From the NCBI GenBank assembly GCA_029555925.1, contig JAKPQU010000218.1, positions 1 to 8,032 of the forward strand: 8,032 bases of DNA. Direction: 5' to 3'. Below the pieces are notes generated by a model that worked only from the letters and a program-made list of their open reading frames with translations, was not told where the DNA came from and did no database searches. This document shows, in pieces, positions 1,814 through 8,032 of this stretch (position 1 is the first letter of the stretch; each line of letters opens with the position of its first letter). The DNA is from Bacillota bacterium. GTDB taxonomy: Bacteria; Eremiobacterota; SpSt-956; JAKJGF01. Position numbers and translations under genes: made by a program.

Positions 1814-1958
1814 TATAGTTAGTTTCATAACTATCCATAAATAATGACCTCGTAATGCGTAAAGCGTAATGTGTGATGCGCAGGGATTAAACCCGTCACG
1901 CGTCACGCGTTACGCTTTACGACGACTTAAATTCTAATAAGTTATGAAATACACTATA
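1814..1958 (+). mobile_element. Palindromic miniature element (MITE-like), copy A
   Basis: A 145-bp element with imperfect terminal inverted repeats of the form TATAGT-N3-TTTCATAACT (16 of 19 positions match between ends). The interior is a long hairpin of heptamers, GCGTRAY on the left arm and GTCACGC or GTTACGC on the right, around a GGGATTAAACCC centre. It matches copy C at 138 of 141 aligned positions and copy B in reverse, which carries a 21-bp deletion. It encodes nothing, and outside the repeated block the flanks of the three copies differ. TA ends and a possible TA target duplication suggest mobilisation by an IS630/Tc1-type transposase, which is inference: no transposase is in the window. 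Its right end lies 29 nt before the gene at 1988. Confidence 0.85.
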
Positions 1959-1960
1959 AA
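1932..1960 (+). promoter_or_regulatory. Outward promoter at the element A terminus
   Basis: The element end ACTATA plus two flanking bases gives TATAAA (1955-1960) as a -10, with TTCTAA (1932-1937) 17 bp upstream as a weak -35. Initiation near 1967 would leave a leader of about 20 nt holding only the Shine-Dalgarno site of the 1988 gene. The -35 matches consensus at only three positions, so an activator may be needed. Confidence 0.4.
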
Positions 1961-1987
1961 TTTGCAGGATAGAGGTGAATTTTTTAT

Positions 1988-2389
1988 ATGGAAACAAATG
2001 AGGCGAAATCGGAGAACAACATACAGGAATTAACGCCGTCTCAGGAAATACCGCTCTGTCAGATTACGGAAAAGACTTTTGACGATTTGAAGGGTAAAAT
2101 TCCTGATGATAGGTTGGAAACAGTAAAATCTATGAAGAAAAGGCATTTTTTGAAGGAAGAACTGGCTCAAATGCTGGAAAAACTAGATTTCTCCAGAGAA
2201 GAGATTGATATAATTTCTTCTGCTACACAGGAACTGGATAAAGAAACATTTATGAAACGTTATTGCATGACTCCTGGAAAATACAGAGAATGGAAAGAAT
2301 CTCTTGTGACATATAAAGATAATCCTTCTGAAAATCCTTTTTATTATGTTCATCCTCCTTTTCAGGTTCTGGACGAAGAGGAGCTTTAA
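1988..2389 (+). CDS. Hypothetical protein, 133 residues, upstream of CHAP hydrolase
   Basis: I do not recognise this protein. It starts at an ATG preceded by AGAGGTGA (1971-1978) with a 9-nt spacer, a strong site that supports translation. The product is soluble and highly charged: a polar N-terminus (1-20), a Lys/Glu-rich and probably helical middle (about 28-110), and an acidic end (DEEEL) after an aromatic segment, PFYYVHPPFQ, at 117-126. There are two cysteines (24 and 93), no signal peptide and no membrane segment. It lies 107 bp before the CHAP-domain gene on the same strand, and a separate promoter sits in that gap, so cotranscription is possible but not required. A chaperone, adaptor or immunity partner of the CHAP protein is one reading suggested only by position. 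Element copy A ends just upstream and may supply its promoter. Confidence 0.75.
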   Translation: METNEAKSENNIQELTPSQEIPLCQITEKTFDDLKGKIPDDRLETVKSMKKRHFLKEELAQMLEKLDFSREEIDIISSATQELDKETFMKRYCMTPGKYREWKESLVTYKDNPSENPFYYVHPPFQVLDEEEL

Positions 2390-2411
2390 TGACTATTTTT
2401 ACATAAAATTA

Positions 2412-2441
2412 TTTACAATTTTTAATTTTGCGTGATATCAT
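2412..2441 (+). promoter_or_regulatory. Putative promoter of the CHAP gene
   Basis: TTTACA (2412-2417) and TATCAT (2436-2441) are separated by 18 bp, each hexamer one mismatch from consensus. Initiation near 2448 would give a leader of about 48 nt ending in a good Shine-Dalgarno site, AAAGGGGA at 2482-2489, 7 nt before the ATG. Confidence 0.45.
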
Positions 2442-2496
2442 TGATAAGAGTAATTATGTCTTTCTTTTGATTTTGATTATGAAAGGGGATATATAA

Positions 2497-3648
2497 ATGT
2501 CAGTAATACGTGATGCCGGCAGTAAGCCTTCATCTCCTCCTCCTAAACCGCAGGCTCCGGCGCCTAAACCTCAGACAACTCAGACAAATAACACCGGTAA
2601 TACCGGGCAAACAGGTCAAACAGGAGGAAATAATAAACCTGATACTGTGAAAACAGAAAATCTTGCTCCTGAAGATAAGGCAGAACTTTCTGCCGAGGCG
2701 CAGCAGGCAGTAAGCGGTAACACTGCATTACCTGATAATATACCAATATCTGCTCCCAAAACAACAAGTAACGTACCTGACTGTTCCCAGGAACAATGTG
2801 CTGAATGGGTTCAAAGGGTATTCAGGGAAAACGGCAGACCTCTTCCTGTAAGCGGAGACGCAAAGGATCTTTTCCCGAAGGACTGGGGAGAAGGTTATCA
2901 AAAACAGTCAAACGGTCAACCGGGACTTGGGCCCCAGGCAGGTGATATATTATGCTGGGGAAAAGGTAACACTCAAAACAGTCAGTGGGGGCATGTGGCT
3001 ATCATAAAAGAAACCCATACAGATCCTCCTCCTGCCTATGTGGTAGTCGCAGAAGCCAATTATGGAACAAATGACGGTCAACATGTGCCTACAAGACAGA
3101 TCCCATATGACCCTGCTACAAATACCATACAGCAGACAGGTAACTGTCCTGTCCAGGGCTGGGTACACCCTGAAGGGGATAAGAGCCTTGTAAATGCTCC
3201 TCCCGGCCAGCCGGGCAATTATGTGCCACAGGCACAGATGCCTGCTTCAGCCCCTGGCGGAGGCACTCCTCAGACAGGTACACCAGGCGGCACTCCTCAG
3301 ACAGGTACACCAGGCGGAGATCCCGGAGGACAGGTAAATGGCAATTTACCCGGAATTTTCGGAGACAATCCTGTTATGTCACCGACAGGTGTGGAAATAA
3401 CCCAGTCTGTCGGCAATATGCTTATGTCGGCATGGCAGGAAGTTATGATGGGTAATTTTAACGGGCCTTCAATACAGAAACTTTATGAGTGGTATATGAA
3501 AGGTGATAAAAATTCACAGGATCCGATAAGGCAGATGGCAGGTAATATTCTGCAGATGGCAGGTATGGTTGTGTCTCAAAATGGATCCACTATGGCAGGA
3601 GGAATTCCTCCTCATATTGCGAAAATGATGCAGGCCCAGCAGATGTAG
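2497..3648 (+). CDS. CHAP-domain amidase/peptidase with low-complexity arms
   Basis: A 383-residue protein with a CHAP (cysteine/histidine amidohydrolase-peptidase) domain at about 94-225, a fold that usually cleaves peptidoglycan peptides or the amide joining them to sugar. The catalytic pattern is visible: Cys101 in EQCAEWV, GDILCWG at 149-155, His166 in WGHVAIIKE, and an acidic/Asn site in EANYG at 186-190. Residues 10-50 are Pro-, Gln-, Asn- and Thr-rich. Residues 250-280 form a Gly-Thr-Pro linker containing an exact tandem duplication. The C-terminus (about 300-383) is a Met-rich, probably helical module I do not recognise. There is no Sec or Tat signal peptide or lipobox, which is unusual for an enzyme that must reach the wall. 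Phage-type release, a signal-independent secretion system, or an intracellular substrate (some CHAP proteins are amidases of other amides) remain open. ATG 2497 is fixed by its ribosome-binding site. Confidence 0.88.
   Translation: MSVIRDAGSKPSSPPPKPQAPAPKPQTTQTNNTGNTGQTGQTGGNNKPDTVKTENLAPEDKAELSAEAQQAVSGNTALPDNIPISAPKTTSNVPDCSQEQCAEWVQRVFRENGRPLPVSGDAKDLFPKDWGEGYQKQSNGQPGLGPQAGDILCWGKGNTQNSQWGHVAIIKETHTDPPPAYVVVAEANYGTNDGQHVPTRQIPYDPATNTIQQTGNCPVQGWVHPEGDKSLVNAPPGQPGNYVPQAQMPASAPGGGTPQTGTPGGTPQTGTPGGDPGGQVNGNLPGIFGDNPVMSPTGVEITQSVGNMLMSAWQEVMMGNFNGPSIQKLYEWYMKGDKNSQDPIRQMAGNILQMAGMVVSQNGSTMAGGIPPHIAKMMQAQQM
3262..3315 (+). repeat. Exact 27-bp tandem duplication in the CHAP linker
   Basis: Two identical in-frame copies, 3262-3288 and 3289-3315, each encode GTPQTGTPG. 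Zero divergence between copies, including third codon positions, indicates a recent slippage event. This makes linker length a likely point of strain-to-strain variation. Confidence 0.95.
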
Positions 3649-3655
3649 GCTTTTT

Positions 3656-3704
3656 ATAGCGGTCAGATTTGCCGTTAATTTATACCGGGATTTTTGACCG
3701 CTAT
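3656..3704. terminator. Hairpin between convergent genes, possible bidirectional terminator
   Basis: A perfect 10-bp inverted repeat (ATAGCGGTCA 3656-3665, TGACCGCTAT 3695-3704) with a 29-nt loop lies 8 bp after the CHAP stop and overlaps the last codons of the opposing radical SAM gene. Neither strand has a T-run after the stem, so it is not a classic intrinsic terminator. It may slow polymerase, protect 3' ends, or need Rho. Confidence 0.4.
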
Positions 3705-4622
3705 GCAACATTTCCCCTGCCAGAGGTCTTTTTCTATAAGGTTTTTTTCTATAAGTGAGAGGGTTTTCTGTTTGTTCAGAGCCCACTGAGGTTCTACCAG
3801 TTCTCCTTTTTTCGGGTCTCCTGTAAGCCTCTGTATAACGACATGTTTTGGAAGAAGTGAAATTGCTTCACAGACAATATTTACATATTCTTCTTCTGTT
3901 ATTGGTTTATAGACACCTTCCTTCAGGAGTTTTTCCATGGGAGTTCCTTTAATTACATAAAGACTGTGAAATTTAACGCCATCGACAGGGAGGTTTGAGA
4001 GTTTTTTCGCTGTTTCTATCATGTCTCTGTAATCTTCTCCGGGAAGTCCGAAGATTACATGAGTGCAGACATGTAACCCTCTTTCTTTTGCCAGGTTCAG
4101 AGCAAAGAGAAAATCTTCAAAGGTGTGATGACGATTTATCTGTTCCAGAGTTTTATTATGTACCGATTGAAGGCCCAGTTCCAGCCATACCATATAATTT
4201 TTTTTCTGATAATCTTCCAGAAGATCAAGTATTTCTTTATTCAGACAGTCAGGTCTTGTTCCTATCGAGAGCCCGACCACTCTATCATCTATGAGTGAGG
4301 AATCATATAATTTTTTTAATTTTTCTACATGGCCATAGCTGCTGGAATAGGATTGAAAATAGGCTATGAATTTGTTTGTTTTAAATCTTTTTGAAAGGTA
4401 ATTTATTCCTTCTTCCATCTGTTTTTCAATGGATTTTCCTTCCCGTGACGCACCTGTGCCTGAACCGAGACTGTTACAGTATATACAGCCTCCCATACCT
4501 TTGGAACCATCCCTGTTGGGACAGGTAAAACCTGCATCAAGAGGTACTTTATGTACCCTGGTGCCGAATTTTTCCTTCAGATAATTATTAAGACTGACGT
4601 ATCTTTTTGGATTTTTGACTAT
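3675..4622 (-). CDS. Radical SAM protein, YhcC/YtqA (TIGR01212-like), AUA start
   Basis: A 315-residue radical SAM enzyme of the YhcC/YtqA type. Such proteins bind a 4Fe-4S cluster and cleave S-adenosylmethionine to a radical; the family's reaction is not securely known. With the start proposed here, cluster cysteines are Cys34, Cys46 and Cys49 in TCPNRDG...GGCIYC, the spacing typical of the family, and LDAGF precedes them at 28-32. A glycine-rich FGLPGED follows at about 190-196. The first ATG in frame, at 4496, lies after Cys34, so a protein begun there would lack a cluster ligand. Upstream the frame stays open to a TAA just before a strong GGAGG, with no ATG, GTG or TTG. Codon ATA at 4620-4622 is 8 nt past GGAGG and is followed by VKNPKRYVSLNNYL, a normal family N-terminus. 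Hence a rare AUA start, a mutated ATG, or a sequencing error. Element copy B lies 34 nt upstream. Confidence 0.9.
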   Translation of the reverse strand: MVKNPKRYVSLNNYLKEKFGTRVHKVPLDAGFTCPNRDGSKGMGGCIYCNSLGSGTGASREGKSIEKQMEEGINYLSKRFKTNKFIAYFQSYSSSYGHVEKLKKLYDSSLIDDRVVGLSIGTRPDCLNKEILDLLEDYQKKNYMVWLELGLQSVHNKTLEQINRHHTFEDFLFALNLAKERGLHVCTHVIFGLPGEDYRDMIETAKKLSNLPVDGVKFHSLYVIKGTPMEKLLKEGVYKPITEEEYVNIVCEAISLLPKHVVIQRLTGDPKKGELVEPQWALNKQKTLSLIEKNLIEKDLWQGKCCIAVKNPGIN

Positions 4623-4627
4623 TTTTT

Positions 4628-4635
4628 CTTCCTCC
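4628..4635 (-). promoter_or_regulatory. Ribosome-binding site that decides an AUA start
   Basis: The minus strand reads GGAGGAAG here, followed by five A residues and then ATA (4622-4620). This is the strongest Shine-Dalgarno in the window and is ideally spaced (8 nt from GGAGG) for initiation at AUA. No AUG, GUG or UUG codon occurs in the 42 codons before the internal ATG at 4496. Confidence 0.7.
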
Positions 4636-4654
4636 AGTATTTACAGAATTGGGC

Positions 4655-4683
4655 ATTATAGTGTATTTCATAACTTATTAGAA
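4655..4683 (-). promoter_or_regulatory. Outward promoter at the element B terminus
   Basis: On the minus strand TTCTAA (4678-4683) lies 17 bp before a perfect TATAAT (4655-4660). The final AT of the hexamer comes from flanking DNA and the first four bases from the element end, so insertion completed the -10. Predicted initiation near 4648 gives a leader of about 26 nt that carries the GGAGG of the radical SAM gene. Confidence 0.5.
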
Positions 4684-4780
4684 TTTAAGTCGTCGTGACG
4701 GGTTTAATCCCTGCGCATCACGCATTACGCTTTACGCATTACGAGGTCATTATTTATTGATAGTTATGAAACTAACTATA
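4657..4780 (-). mobile_element. Palindromic miniature element (MITE-like), copy B, inverted
   Basis: The reverse complement of copy A, 124 bp instead of 145. The difference is exactly 21 bp, three heptamers missing from the right arm, so the arm after GGGATTAAACCC holds only GTCACG before ACGACTT. Terminal repeats are intact; one further base differs near the left end (CAATAAAT here, CCATAAAT in A). With the right arm shortened the long hairpin can no longer form fully, yet the promoter-bearing terminus facing the radical SAM gene is unchanged. Confidence 0.85.
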
Positions 4781-4804
4781 ATATTTAGTAAAAATTTTTC
4801 TCTG

Positions 4805-4839
4805 CACCCTTTATTCTTCACCCTTCACTCTTCACCCTT
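4805..4839. repeat. Second heptamer array, CACCCTT type, five units
   Basis: Five contiguous 7-bp units read CACCCTT, TATTCTT, CACCCTT, CACTCTT, CACCCTT. It resembles the short tandemly repeated heptamers known from several bacterial genomes and differs in sequence from the heptamers inside the miniature elements. It lies 17 bp beyond the stop of the hybrid kinase gene. I see no convincing terminator for that operon. Confidence 0.85.
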
Positions 4840-4856
4840 ATAATACAGGGAACCAT

Positions 4857-6494
4857 TTACAACCCTGTTTTTTCAAGTATTTCTACGAGTTCTTTTATTT
4901 CAAATGGTTTTTGTAGAAACCAGTCTGTTTTTCCCTCTATATAATCCTTGAAGGCAGCCTTACCTTCATAGCCACTTGTAATTATAATTTTTACGTTATT
5001 GTTAATGAGGCGTATCTCCTGCAGTGCTTCTATGCCGCTCATCTTCGGCATAGTTATATCAAGTATTATGGCACATATTTCTTCTTCATGTTTTTTAAAT
5101 AATTCCAGTCCTTCTTTTCCGTCACCTGCTGTTATTACTGTAAAGCCCAGTTCTTCAAGTATAGCTTTAGTTACAATACAGATACATTCTTCGTCATCAA
5201 CTACAAGTATTTTTCCCTTCCATTTAGGGAGATTTATTTCACTATGTTTTTCTGTCTTTTCCTCCGCAATAAAAGTAAAAGCAGGAAACAGTAATCTTAT
5301 AGTTGTTCCTCTGTCCGGTTCACTGCTGAGTTTTATTGTTCCCCTGTGATATCTTATAATACCGAGGACTGCCGCAAGTCCCAGACCTCTCCCGGTAAAT
5401 TTGGTAGTAAAGAAAGGATCGAAAATTTTATCCTGATTGTCTTTTGGTATTCCGCAGCCCGTATCTGTTATTTCAATATAAATGTAAAGACCTTCTAAAA
5501 GATTTTCATGAAGATAACTTTCAGCTAAATAAGCTGTGTCACATTTCATTGTTCCTGTAGTTATTGTAATTATTCCGTCTTTTTCACCTATAGCTTCCGA
5601 GGCATTTATTATCAGGTTCATAATTACCTGACGTAACTGTGATATGTCACAGTAGCAGAGTGGGAGATTTTCATGAAAATTATATTTTAATATATGTTTT
5701 TTAGGAATGGATAGTTCCATCAATTTTCCTGTATCCTCTGCCAGGCTTGAAAGATTTGCAGGTTGAATTGAAAATTTGCCGAGTCCTGCGTAAGCAAGCA
5801 TCTGCCCGGTCAGTTCAGATGCTCTTATTGAAGAAGTGCGAATCTGTTCCAGCCTGTTTCTTAAAACTGATTCTGCAGACATGTCTCTCAGAGCAAGCTC
5901 GACATGTCCCAGGATACCTGCCAGGATATTATTAAAGTCATGGGCTATACCTCCTGCAAGAATACCGAGGCTTTCAAGTTTTTGAGCATGAAGAACCTGC
6001 TTTTGAAGTTTTTTCTTTTCTTCTTCTGCTTTTATTCTTTCCGTTATATCTCTTGCTACTATAACGGCATAGAATATGCTGTTGAAATTAACAATCCTTA
6101 CTGTCATTTCTACCGGTAAATCGTGACTGTTGCTTTTCTTCATTATTATCTTTAATATCTGTCTTTCTTCATCTATGATTTTTTCATTTTCCAGTAATTT
6201 TTTTATTCTTTCATCATCTGTAATATTTCCAAAAGGTTTCTTCAGAAGATCATCTTTTTTATATCCAAGCTGACTGCAGGCAGATTCATTTACATCCATA
6301 AGTATACCGGAAGGTATCTGTACAAGAAATATGGCATCATTGCTCTGATCCAGAAGGGAACGGAATTTTTCCAGTTCTGCCAGTCTTTCCTGAAGTTCAG
6401 GGTAATAGCTTTTTCTTATGGAATGTTCACCGAGTCCTATAATTCTTTCACGAAGAGATTCATATTTATTTTCGTCATCATAAGGCCTGTTCAT
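4857..6494 (-). CDS. PAS-domain hybrid histidine kinase with C-terminal receiver
   Basis: A 545-residue soluble hybrid sensor kinase. Order: an N-terminal segment with IIGLGEHSIRKSYYPELQ at 18-35, a PAS domain at about 43-155, a HisKA dimerisation domain with phospho-acceptor His185 in GGIAHDFNNIL, an ATPase domain with N-box Asn297, G1 DTGCGIP at 344-350, FDPFF at 358-362 and G2 GRGLGLA at 368-374, then a receiver domain at about 427-545 with acidic pair D433/D434, phospho-acceptor Asp479, Ser507 and Lys529. Every catalytic residue is present. No membrane segment is seen, so it should sense a cytosolic signal through PAS. It overlaps the end of the ercA-like gene by 17 bp, implying translational coupling; its own ribosome site is weak. 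That pairing recalls ErcA with its sensor kinases in Pseudomonas ethanol-oxidation control. No separate output regulator is encoded here, so phosphate probably passes to a partner elsewhere. Confidence 0.93.
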   Translation of the reverse strand: MNRPYDDENKYESLRERIIGLGEHSIRKSYYPELQERLAELEKFRSLLDQSNDAIFLVQIPSGILMDVNESACSQLGYKKDDLLKKPFGNITDDERIKKLLENEKIIDEERQILKIIMKKSNSHDLPVEMTVRIVNFNSIFYAVIVARDITERIKAEEEKKKLQKQVLHAQKLESLGILAGGIAHDFNNILAGILGHVELALRDMSAESVLRNRLEQIRTSSIRASELTGQMLAYAGLGKFSIQPANLSSLAEDTGKLMELSIPKKHILKYNFHENLPLCYCDISQLRQVIMNLIINASEAIGEKDGIITITTGTMKCDTAYLAESYLHENLLEGLYIYIEITDTGCGIPKDNQDKIFDPFFTTKFTGRGLGLAAVLGIIRYHRGTIKLSSEPDRGTTIRLLFPAFTFIAEEKTEKHSEINLPKWKGKILVVDDEECICIVTKAILEELGFTVITAGDGKEGLELFKKHEEEICAIILDITMPKMSGIEALQEIRLINNNVKIIITSGYEGKAAFKDYIEGKTDWFLQKPFEIKELVEILEKTGL

Positions 6495-7614
6495 AAATTG
6501 TTTCTATATCCTTTTGTTTAGCTTTTTTAGGATTTGTTACTATACATGCATCTCTTATGGCATTATAAGCCAGCTGTGGAATATCACTTTTCTTCATACC
6601 TTTTTGCCCCAGTGTGGAAGTAATGCCTGCTTCAGTTCGTAACTGTACTATTTTTTTACAGATAGATTTTTTTTTGTCACCATTTAATTTAAGTTTCATT
6701 GCTTCTCCTATCCTGTCATAGCGTTCAGAAGCTACATCATAATTATGGGATATTACATAGCTTAATAGAATAGCATTCGCTTCTCCATGGGGAAAATCCA
6801 GGAATCCTCCTAGACTGTGTGCCATGGCATGGACTGCTCCCAGGCTTGCATTGGAAAAGGCGAGTCCTGCAAGGAGGCTGGCCAGCATCATATTATTTCT
6901 GTATTTCATGGACATGGGATTATTTAGTGATTCTATCAAATTTTCTGTTATCAGCCTTATTGCTTCAAGTGCATTGAGATCTGTAACAGGTGAACTGGCG
7001 TTGGATACATATGCTTCTATTGCATGACACAGGGCGTCCATGCCGGTACAGGCAGTGAGATATGAATCCATAGTTGTCAGTGTGACAGGATCTATCAGTG
7101 CTATATCAGGAACAACTGCTTTACTGATAATAGCTATTTTTACCTTTCTTTCCCTGTCTGTAATGATGGCGAACTGTGAGACATCTGCAGATGTCCCTGC
7201 AGTAGTGGGGATACATATGAGTGGAGGACAGGGGTTTGACACCATATCAACACCTTCGAAGTGAAGGACATGCTCTTTATTGGAAGAGACTATGCCGATA
7301 CCTTTGGCACAGTCCATAGGACTGCCTCCTCCTACAGATACTATAAAATTACATCCTTCATTCCTGTATATTTCTGCTCCCTTCATAACTTCTTCTGCCC
7401 GTGGGTTTGGACTTATGTCAGAAAAAATCTCGCATGACAGACCTTCTTTTTTGAGGCACTGAGCTATTTCTTCTGCCCATCCTGCAGTAATTACACCTTT
7501 ATCTGTTACAAGTAAAATCTTTCTGGCGCCTAAATGTCTGGCATATCTGCCTGCGTGTAATCTTGCTCCTTCTCCGAAAATGAATTCAGGAGCAACAAAT
7601 TTTCTTAACTCCAT
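6478..7614 (-). CDS. ercA: Iron-type alcohol dehydrogenase, ErcA-like regulatory protein
   Basis: A 378-residue group III (Fe-containing) alcohol dehydrogenase of normal length. The NAD(P)-binding GGGSPMD is at 95-101 and IPTTAGTSAD at 135-144. Expected metal ligands D193 and H197 (GMDALCHAIEAY) and H262 and H276 (AVHAMAHSLGG...FPHGEAN) are all present, so catalysis is plausible. The opening ELRKFVAPEFIFGEGAR and the genetic coupling to a PAS hybrid kinase are what I know of ErcA, an ADH-like protein with a regulatory role in ethanol oxidation in Pseudomonas; the symbol rests on that resemblance and on synteny, not on a search. ATG 7614 has a purine-rich AAGGGAAGAG upstream, about 6 nt away. 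A decayed miniature element (copy D) occupies the promoter region from 7648. An enzymatic role in alcohol or aldehyde conversion is the alternative. Confidence 0.9.
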   Translation of the reverse strand: MELRKFVAPEFIFGEGARLHAGRYARHLGARKILLVTDKGVITAGWAEEIAQCLKKEGLSCEIFSDISPNPRAEEVMKGAEIYRNEGCNFIVSVGGGSPMDCAKGIGIVSSNKEHVLHFEGVDMVSNPCPPLICIPTTAGTSADVSQFAIITDRERKVKIAIISKAVVPDIALIDPVTLTTMDSYLTACTGMDALCHAIEAYVSNASSPVTDLNALEAIRLITENLIESLNNPMSMKYRNNMMLASLLAGLAFSNASLGAVHAMAHSLGGFLDFPHGEANAILLSYVISHNYDVASERYDRIGEAMKLKLNGDKKKSICKKIVQLRTEAGITSTLGQKGMKKSDIPQLAYNAIRDACIVTNPKKAKQKDIETIYEQAL

Positions 7615-7647
7615 ATTTATCTCTTCCCTTCTGCTATGAATATAAAA

Positions 7648-7735
7648 TATAATGTTATGGACTGATTGTTTTCGTGACGCGTGACGCGTGACGGGAGGAT
7701 TATCTATGGATTATTTAAATATATGAATTATTATA
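7648..7735 (-). mobile_element. Decayed miniature element, copy D
   Basis: A core of three GCGTGAC-type heptamers ending in GACGGG (7673-7695) equals the right arm of the element in reverse. It is followed directly by AGGATTATCTATGGAT, which resembles the AGGTCATTATTTATGGAT of the inverted left flank, as if the loop and other arm (about 40 bp) had been deleted. Outer ends TATAATGT (7648) and ATTATTATA (7735) are weak matches to the terminal repeats. The orientation equals copy B, with the promoter-type end 33 nt from the ercA start. Homology of the outer parts is tentative; the heptamer core is certain. Confidence 0.5.
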
Positions 7736-7776
7736 GAATTATTTAAAAAAAATAGCAAATTATAAATAAAATTCTT

Positions 7777-7890
7777 TCATACTCCTTTGCCTGGATAATA
7801 CATATGGAATTTCAGCAGCCAATCCCTTCCGAAAACAAATAATCCTCTTTCTGTTAAATTTGTTCTTCCAGGTATCTCAGATTTAACTTC
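7777..7890 (-). pseudogene. Possible C-terminal gene remnant cut by element C
   Basis: On the minus strand 37 codons plus a TGA stay open from the edge of copy C. They read as plausible protein, including RGLFVFGRDWLLKFH, and are less AT-rich than the DNA on the left. There is no ATG, GTG or TTG start before a late internal Met. The frame hits a stop immediately inside copy C, as expected if the element inserted into a gene. A chance open frame of this length is quite possible, and I do not recognise the peptide. The rest of 7736-7891 shows no other feature. Confidence 0.22.
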
Positions 7891-7891
7891 T

Positions 7892-8032
7892 TATAGTTAG
7901 TTTCATAACTATCCATAAATAATGACCTCGTAATGCGTAAAGCGTAATGCGTGATGCGCAGGGATTAAACCCGTCACGCGTCACGCGTTACGCGTCACGA
8001 CGACTTAAATTCTAATAAGTTATGAAATACAC
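7892..8032 (+). mobile_element. Palindromic miniature element (MITE-like), copy C, right end cut
   Basis: The sequence matches copy A over 141 positions with three substitutions, all in the heptamer arms (GTG to GCG in the left arm; GCTTTACG to GCGTCACG in the right). The window ends at ACAC, four bases (TATA) short of the complete element. It has the same strand as A, so its promoter-type terminus points out of the window. Confidence 0.85.

Follow-up and report, generated by a model that had tools for sequence, protein, structure and literature searches.

A new family of heptamer-cored miniature inverted-repeat elements whose promoter-like ends are very probably accidental

The short repeats of the window, that is, of the whole 8,032-nt stretch of DNA analysed here, belong to a new family of miniature inverted-repeat elements (MITEs) of a known kind, and their general interpretation as mobile promoters is unsupported. 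The family was very probably spread by a transposase that targets TA, the promoter-like character of its ends being an accident and not the mark of a dedicated promoter cassette, as a first-pass annotation of the window had suggested. The features concerned are listed below, with G001 denoting a related public genome and C238 one of its contigs.

1814 to 1958, forward strand: element A, a full and intact MITE of 145 bp, running from its L to its R end.
1814 to 1831, forward strand: L terminal repeat of A (TATAGTTAGTTTCATAAC).
1941 to 1958, forward strand: R terminal repeat of A (GTTATGAAATACACTATA).
1988 to 2389, forward strand: gene for a 133-aa protein without a Pfam match; its C238 relative (71% identity) has no element in front.
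3675 to 4622, reverse strand: gene for a radical SAM protein; its C238 relative (67% identity) has no element in front.
4657 to 4780, reverse strand: element B, a full and intact MITE of 124 bp, its R end facing the radical-SAM gene.
6478 to 7614, reverse strand: gene for an iron-containing alcohol dehydrogenase, adjoining D.
7673 to 7711, reverse strand: D, a relic with core heptamers and a weak likeness to the L-subterminal part; no terminal repeat is recognisable.
7892 to 8032, forward strand: element C, cut by the end of the window; over 142 bp it shares 98% identity with A.

By reading of the window and by repeat search, A and C are direct copies and B is an inverted one; the bounds of A and B were set with the end motifs, at no more than 3 mismatches each, and C is also detected by a profile built from the copies. 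The 21 bp by which B is shorter than A equal the length of three heptamers. Nothing in the window matched Rfam. The idea of a miniature element, real and mobile, is upheld for these copies, and D was dropped as a positioned copy: its core heptamers give a 23-nt match to the element (score 41, where 300 shuffles reached at most 26) and its L-subterminal stretch a weak one (score 22; 95% of shuffles 20, maximum 27), but its R end does not match (score 15; 95% of shuffles 22), and the profile misses it at E 0.01.

The original argument for a cassette was one of geometry, with three copies lying 29, 34 and 33 nt before starts at 1988, 4622 and 7614, all turning the same terminus to the gene. For A and B the distances are correct: the R end of A (1958) lies 29 nt before the ATG at 1988, with 314 nt between its L end and the divergent start at 1499, and the R end of B (4657) lies 34 nt from the start at 4622, in a co-directional gap behind a histidine kinase gene. 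Both turn the R end (CACTATA) to the gene, and both have TTCTAA 17 bp upstream of a −10 hexamer, TATAAA in A and TATAAT in B, as had been described. The 33 nt and the TATATT assigned to D are not supported, its R end being unmatched. As for the starts, 1988 is an ATG, while the radical-SAM codon at 4622 reads ATA and the first listed ATG is at 4496; we infer the start at 4622 because the frame runs as far as this position and the alignment with the G001 relative begins at residue 6. The apparent ATA start (4620-4622) follows a GGAGG motif; one explanation would be a rare start codon, the other a change in the sequence. Moreover, since both ends read ACTATA outward, this terminus alone defines no orientation. 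C had been left out of the argument (its L end is toward the divergent start at 7614, 277 nt off, and the neighbour on its R side lies beyond the window), and with D unusable the agreement of three copies reduces to that of two. That both A and B turn R to the gene would occur by chance once in four times.

The check proposed with that annotation, a tabulation of orientation and distance over genomic copies, was run in a relative and not in the window's own genome. G001 is the metagenome-assembled genome UR.bin48, of JAKJGF01, deposited as Bacillota. An end-pattern scan of genome contigs gave 29 stretches, nine of them from JAKJGF contigs, and the BLAST matches of the window to the 29 all fall within these nine, save for a bare 22-nt end match in L027; two virus stretches carrying the end pattern were judged to be chance, because BLAST at E 1e-3 aligned no part of the window with them. 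Contig C238 carries relatives of the 133-aa, CHAP (67%) and radical-SAM genes in the same order as the window. Its only profile match is a core-type one of 27.7 bits (L130:11073-11140), some 2.5 kb from the radical-SAM gene. Other genes argue against a close kinship: the best G001 match to the alcohol dehydrogenase has only 38% identity, the histidine kinase reaches just 31-33% in the G001 loci then examined, and in those loci the ADP-ribosylglycohydrolase had no match at E 1e-20. The CHAP protein (2497-3648) has a relative, P0003, of 67% identity labelled Candidatus Eremiobacteraeota, and two closer ones of 93% and 86%. The phylum name of the window is one that we infer. With regard to the Bacillota name of G001, the gene order and the label of the CHAP relative suggest that it may be wrong.

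In G001 the ends of the element are abundant, with 97 matches at no more than 2 mismatches and none to the reversed-pattern control. Apart from G001 itself, two of the 18 genomes given as relatives carry a single end match each, and among the other 148 genomes of the phylum six have 1-3 at no more than 1 mismatch, as does the reversed-pattern control; among the 149 genomes of the phylum, the element is present in numbers only in G001. The sample drawn from it comprises 58 regions and 498,088 bases. Pairing of ends gave 41 elements, A and B among them, and the profile gave 62 non-overlapping matches at E 0.01, three of them in the window; with a threshold of 28 bits, the sampled G001 regions contain 47 copies and the window 3, the dispersal proper to a MITE. 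Equally in keeping with one, 37 copies (A and B included) are short, at 90-151 bp, without a long reading frame, and have inverted-repeat ends with no more than 2 mismatches in all, both ends taken together. The terminal repeats are of 18 bp and imperfect, and the R and L ends differ, so that the orientation of each copy can be read.

The target of the family is the palindrome ATTAAT, with duplication of TA. In the joined target of 35 G001 copies (at no more than 2 mismatches) T stands at −1 in 30 and A at +1 in 30, and in the outer positions A stands at −2 in 23 and T at +2 in 23, the TA at both ends of the element being built into the end motif. When the flanks of a copy are joined, they align in some cases with sequence elsewhere, and do so through the junction (29 rows, several of which are own-locus matches or were left unexamined); in the 10 alignments inspected, identity is 77-86% over 47-130 bp, with small gaps beside the spot in some, and the insertion spot reads TA in six and, as a point against the rule, AA or TT in four. 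These are other copies of host repeats, without the element, aligning across the junction, so that a duplicated target and an element-free site are both present, as in a MITE, and the duplicated TA is that of IS630/Tc1-mariner derivatives. As separate observations, an element is inserted in a second interspersed repeat family (flank of L119:5001-5129; L091:5052-5181, L081:948-1070, L088:5057-5166, L141:8863-8977); inner sequence resembling that second family lies between element-like ends at L092:1441-1587; and two elements of different core type and the same orientation lie 46 bp apart in L111 (5001-5108 and 5155-5293).

Duplication of TA at an AT-rich palindromic target is the habit of the IS630/Tc1-mariner family, and MITEs derived from it share both traits with the present element, although no transposase with matching ends was found in G001. 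The enzyme that spread the family would probably have been of this type, inserting at the TA of ATTAAT and duplicating it. It speaks against this account that the search of this draft genome yielded no autonomous partner bearing such termini: between 20 pairs of ends 115-3500 bp apart (the lower bound being set at 250 bp), no transposase occurs among the 8 proteins scanned. Seven IS630-type (DDE_3) matches exist in G001 (L131-L137), three with internal stops and the other four covering only part of the profile, and none has element ends within the loci read, where other ends are present. Five of these loci, L131 (an inverted pair, 873-2014), L132, L133, L135 and L137, have TAGAGTGTTTC ends, with a faint likeness to those of the MITE.

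Between its ends the element holds a palindrome of heptanucleotide repeats, variable in sequence and in number from copy to copy, with lengths (90-151) peaking at 137 and 133; its two arms vary independently in their number of units. Arrays of period 7 are a trait of the whole G001 genome: the element regions and the window hold 49, of which 27 are in elements, 3 in genes and 19 in other intergenic positions, where periods 5, 6 and 8-11 give 0-2, and 20 other G001 contigs (204,488 bases, hand-picked among contigs without an end match) hold 14, against 1 at periods 4-6 and 8-12 together. Of ten relatives sampled (7.8-40 kb each), only G009 has such arrays (2), and some others have arrays of 6, 9 or 12. 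In G001 they occur in L067-L124 and L138-L157, many outside the element (for example L141:12872-12933), with units of the GTGAAAA, GTGAGAC, AGTCAGC and TAATGCG types. The G001 arrays resemble heptamer repeats of cyanobacteria, the STRRs and the TAACTGA repeats. Given so many arrays outside the element, it could be supposed that the copies are themselves nothing but expanded arrays with incidental ends, and not transposons. However, this is already largely contradicted by the precise and conserved ends, the target rule and the element-free copies of insertion sites, as well as by the outside arrays themselves, which have no divergent bias (18 co-directional, 7 divergent and 3 convergent, thus 7/28 in gaps; a further 8 are in genes or at edges), and we give it almost no credence.

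The palindrome could also act as RNA, in such a way that the hairpin of a read-through transcript would be cut or would make the mRNA more or less stable, a role reported for Correia and ERIC elements. The predicted folds are strong, and that of A (−59 kcal/mol, z −9.8) agrees with this, as does the position of B, where co-transcription is possible. An inverted-repeat element folds in any case, though, and the arms fit their own partner no better than that of another copy (means of −27.2 and −27.4 kcal/mol; permutation P 0.62, 29 copies), nor are arm lengths within a copy correlated (0.04). In these 29 copies, chosen after omission of 8 loci whose elements have a damaged or different core, and split at the predicted loop (off-centre for B), arm covariation as a sign of selection was not found. 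Co-directional gaps, moreover, are depleted of copies (14/44, against 48% to 66% expected), and an RNA role seems to us quite improbable. A single regulator binding the heptamer palindrome and governing unrelated genes, as once envisaged, is likewise unlikely, because the heptamers differ between copies and an arm pairs with its own partner no better than with that of another copy.

Genes were called with a hexamer coding model and Shine-Dalgarno scoring (86% coding overall); the window received six, among them the radical-SAM gene, which the caller began at ATG 4496. Both end regions are covered in 44 of the 47 copies, and for 42 of the 44 a usable gene was called on either side, 27 in divergent, 13 in co-directional and 2 in convergent gaps. 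The nearest start is faced by the R end in 18/40 and by the L end in 22/40 (P 0.64), R facing it in 8/13 co-directional and 10/27 divergent copies; the single orientation seen in the window does not hold. Nor does its fixed spacing, since the 35 R-to-start and 32 L-to-start distances range from overlap to 960 nt, and the 7 R and 5 L ends that lie 15-45 nt before a start do not significantly exceed the 4.5 + 4.5 given by random TA sites in the same gaps (12 against 9, P 0.156; R alone, P 0.158). The R ends being slightly above expectation (7 versus 4.5), there is room for a few real promoters.

What is not random is the type of gap. At a gene score of at least 15, 44 elements lie in gaps, 28 divergent, 14 co-directional and 2 convergent, against a TA-weighted divergent expectation of 0.31 from element-free gaps of the same regions (P 7e-6), 0.27 from the 20 other contigs (P 3e-7), or 0.44 if all gaps, the element-bearing ones included, are counted (P 0.006, range 5e-5 to 0.007); when divergent gaps are compared only with convergent ones, the result is borderline (P 0.03 to 0.19, depending on the settings). 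The copies lie mostly in 5′-flanking gaps and seem to settle where the DNA between genes is A/T-rich, insertions in genes and inside operons having probably been lost, and loss inside operons may explain most of the divergent bias. Of the alternative offered by the first-pass annotation, that transposition targets such sites, the selectivity for ATTAAT and the divergent, 5′-flanking bias stand, and the rule of orientation and spacing does not.

There remains the promoter-like sequence itself, from which it could be proposed that the R end is a promoter of sigma-70 type (TTCTAA-17-TATAAT), and that selection has kept the insertions driving a neighbouring gene. The geometry of A and B, the TATAAT at many junctions, the seven R ends 15-45 nt before starts and the fact that Correia elements can do so in Neisseria, in the parts of two accounts consulted (PMC2649163, PMC10969869), all speak for it. 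Nevertheless, TATAAT reads outward at 21/35 R and at 21/35 L junctions in G001, because the terminal TATA joins the AT of ATTAAT, and equally at both ends, because that target is symmetric. In this way a −10-like hexamer would often come to lie near a gene by accident. Of 13 full-length ends 15-45 nt before a start, one being that of A, 4 have TATAAT and 7 TATAAA, and TATAAT is rarer there (4/13) than at other ends (40/65, among which the R end of B is counted, as the caller used ATG 4496), a difference opposite to a promoter role (Fisher P 0.06). By contrast, for the exact TATAAT sites of 222 element-free upstream regions of G001, the −35 match reaches 5-6/6 in 11 forward versus 2 reverse cases, the lower matches being 16 versus 12 (4/6) and 27 versus 23 (3/6). 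The R ends of 37 elements match the −35 at 3/6 in 32, 4/6 in 4 and 2/6 in 1, and the L ends at 2/6 in 26, 3/6 in 10 and 4/6 in 1; as native 3/6 matches are equally common on both strands, the R ends are at background level. Ends placed and shaped as promoters, in the manner of a Correia-type promoter element, are thus not the general rule in G001, and a cassette maintained by selection is highly improbable.

Promoter donation may occur at single loci, such as that of A. A broader form of it would be that some few of the insertions, those no more than about 45 nt from a start codon (the 13 full-length ends including A, with B as a 14th having an ATA start), replaced the native promoter. As ATTAAT and the terminal TATA complete TATAAT or TATAAA, the preference for this target would itself mint −10 boxes at both ends, and the family would supply weak promoters at random, facing either way; independently of this, its core would have captured the genome-wide heptamer system, which also exists outside the element. 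This reading we consider rather unlikely.

The family has several known counterparts. The Correia repeat enclosed element (CREE) of Neisseria has TATAG termini and a TA target. It is an inverted-repeat MITE of 69-157 bp, located 5′ of genes in 71/113 cases in one strain, at 22-124 nt from them, and promoters can form at either of its ends, according to the portion of the study consulted (PMC2649163). Compared by description, the two are alike as short inverted-repeat MITEs with many copies 5′ of genes; the present one differs in its lineage, in its heptamer core, in lacking an orientation or spacing signal in G001, and in that its promoter role is only putative. BrickBuilt, of Porphyromonas gingivalis, is an intergenic MITE with an internal tandem repeat and inverted-repeat ends (PMC4596501, in part), with a 23-nt unit in place of a palindromic array of 7 nt, and with measured promoter activity. 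The heptanucleotide repeats of cyanobacteria form intergenic arrays of a strict 7-nt unit, in the section consulted of their description (PMC4679880), whereas in G001 there are several unit families, one of them inside a MITE. In the one library searched, we found no paper on miniature inverted-repeat elements in Eremiobacterota, which does not prove that none exists elsewhere.

In summary, a pattern shared by two or three copies within a single window can look like regulation of which a whole related genome shows none. What that genome does contain is a MITE family of an uncultured lineage, which obeys a clean target rule, has insertion sites that also occur without the element, and is built around a heptamer core.
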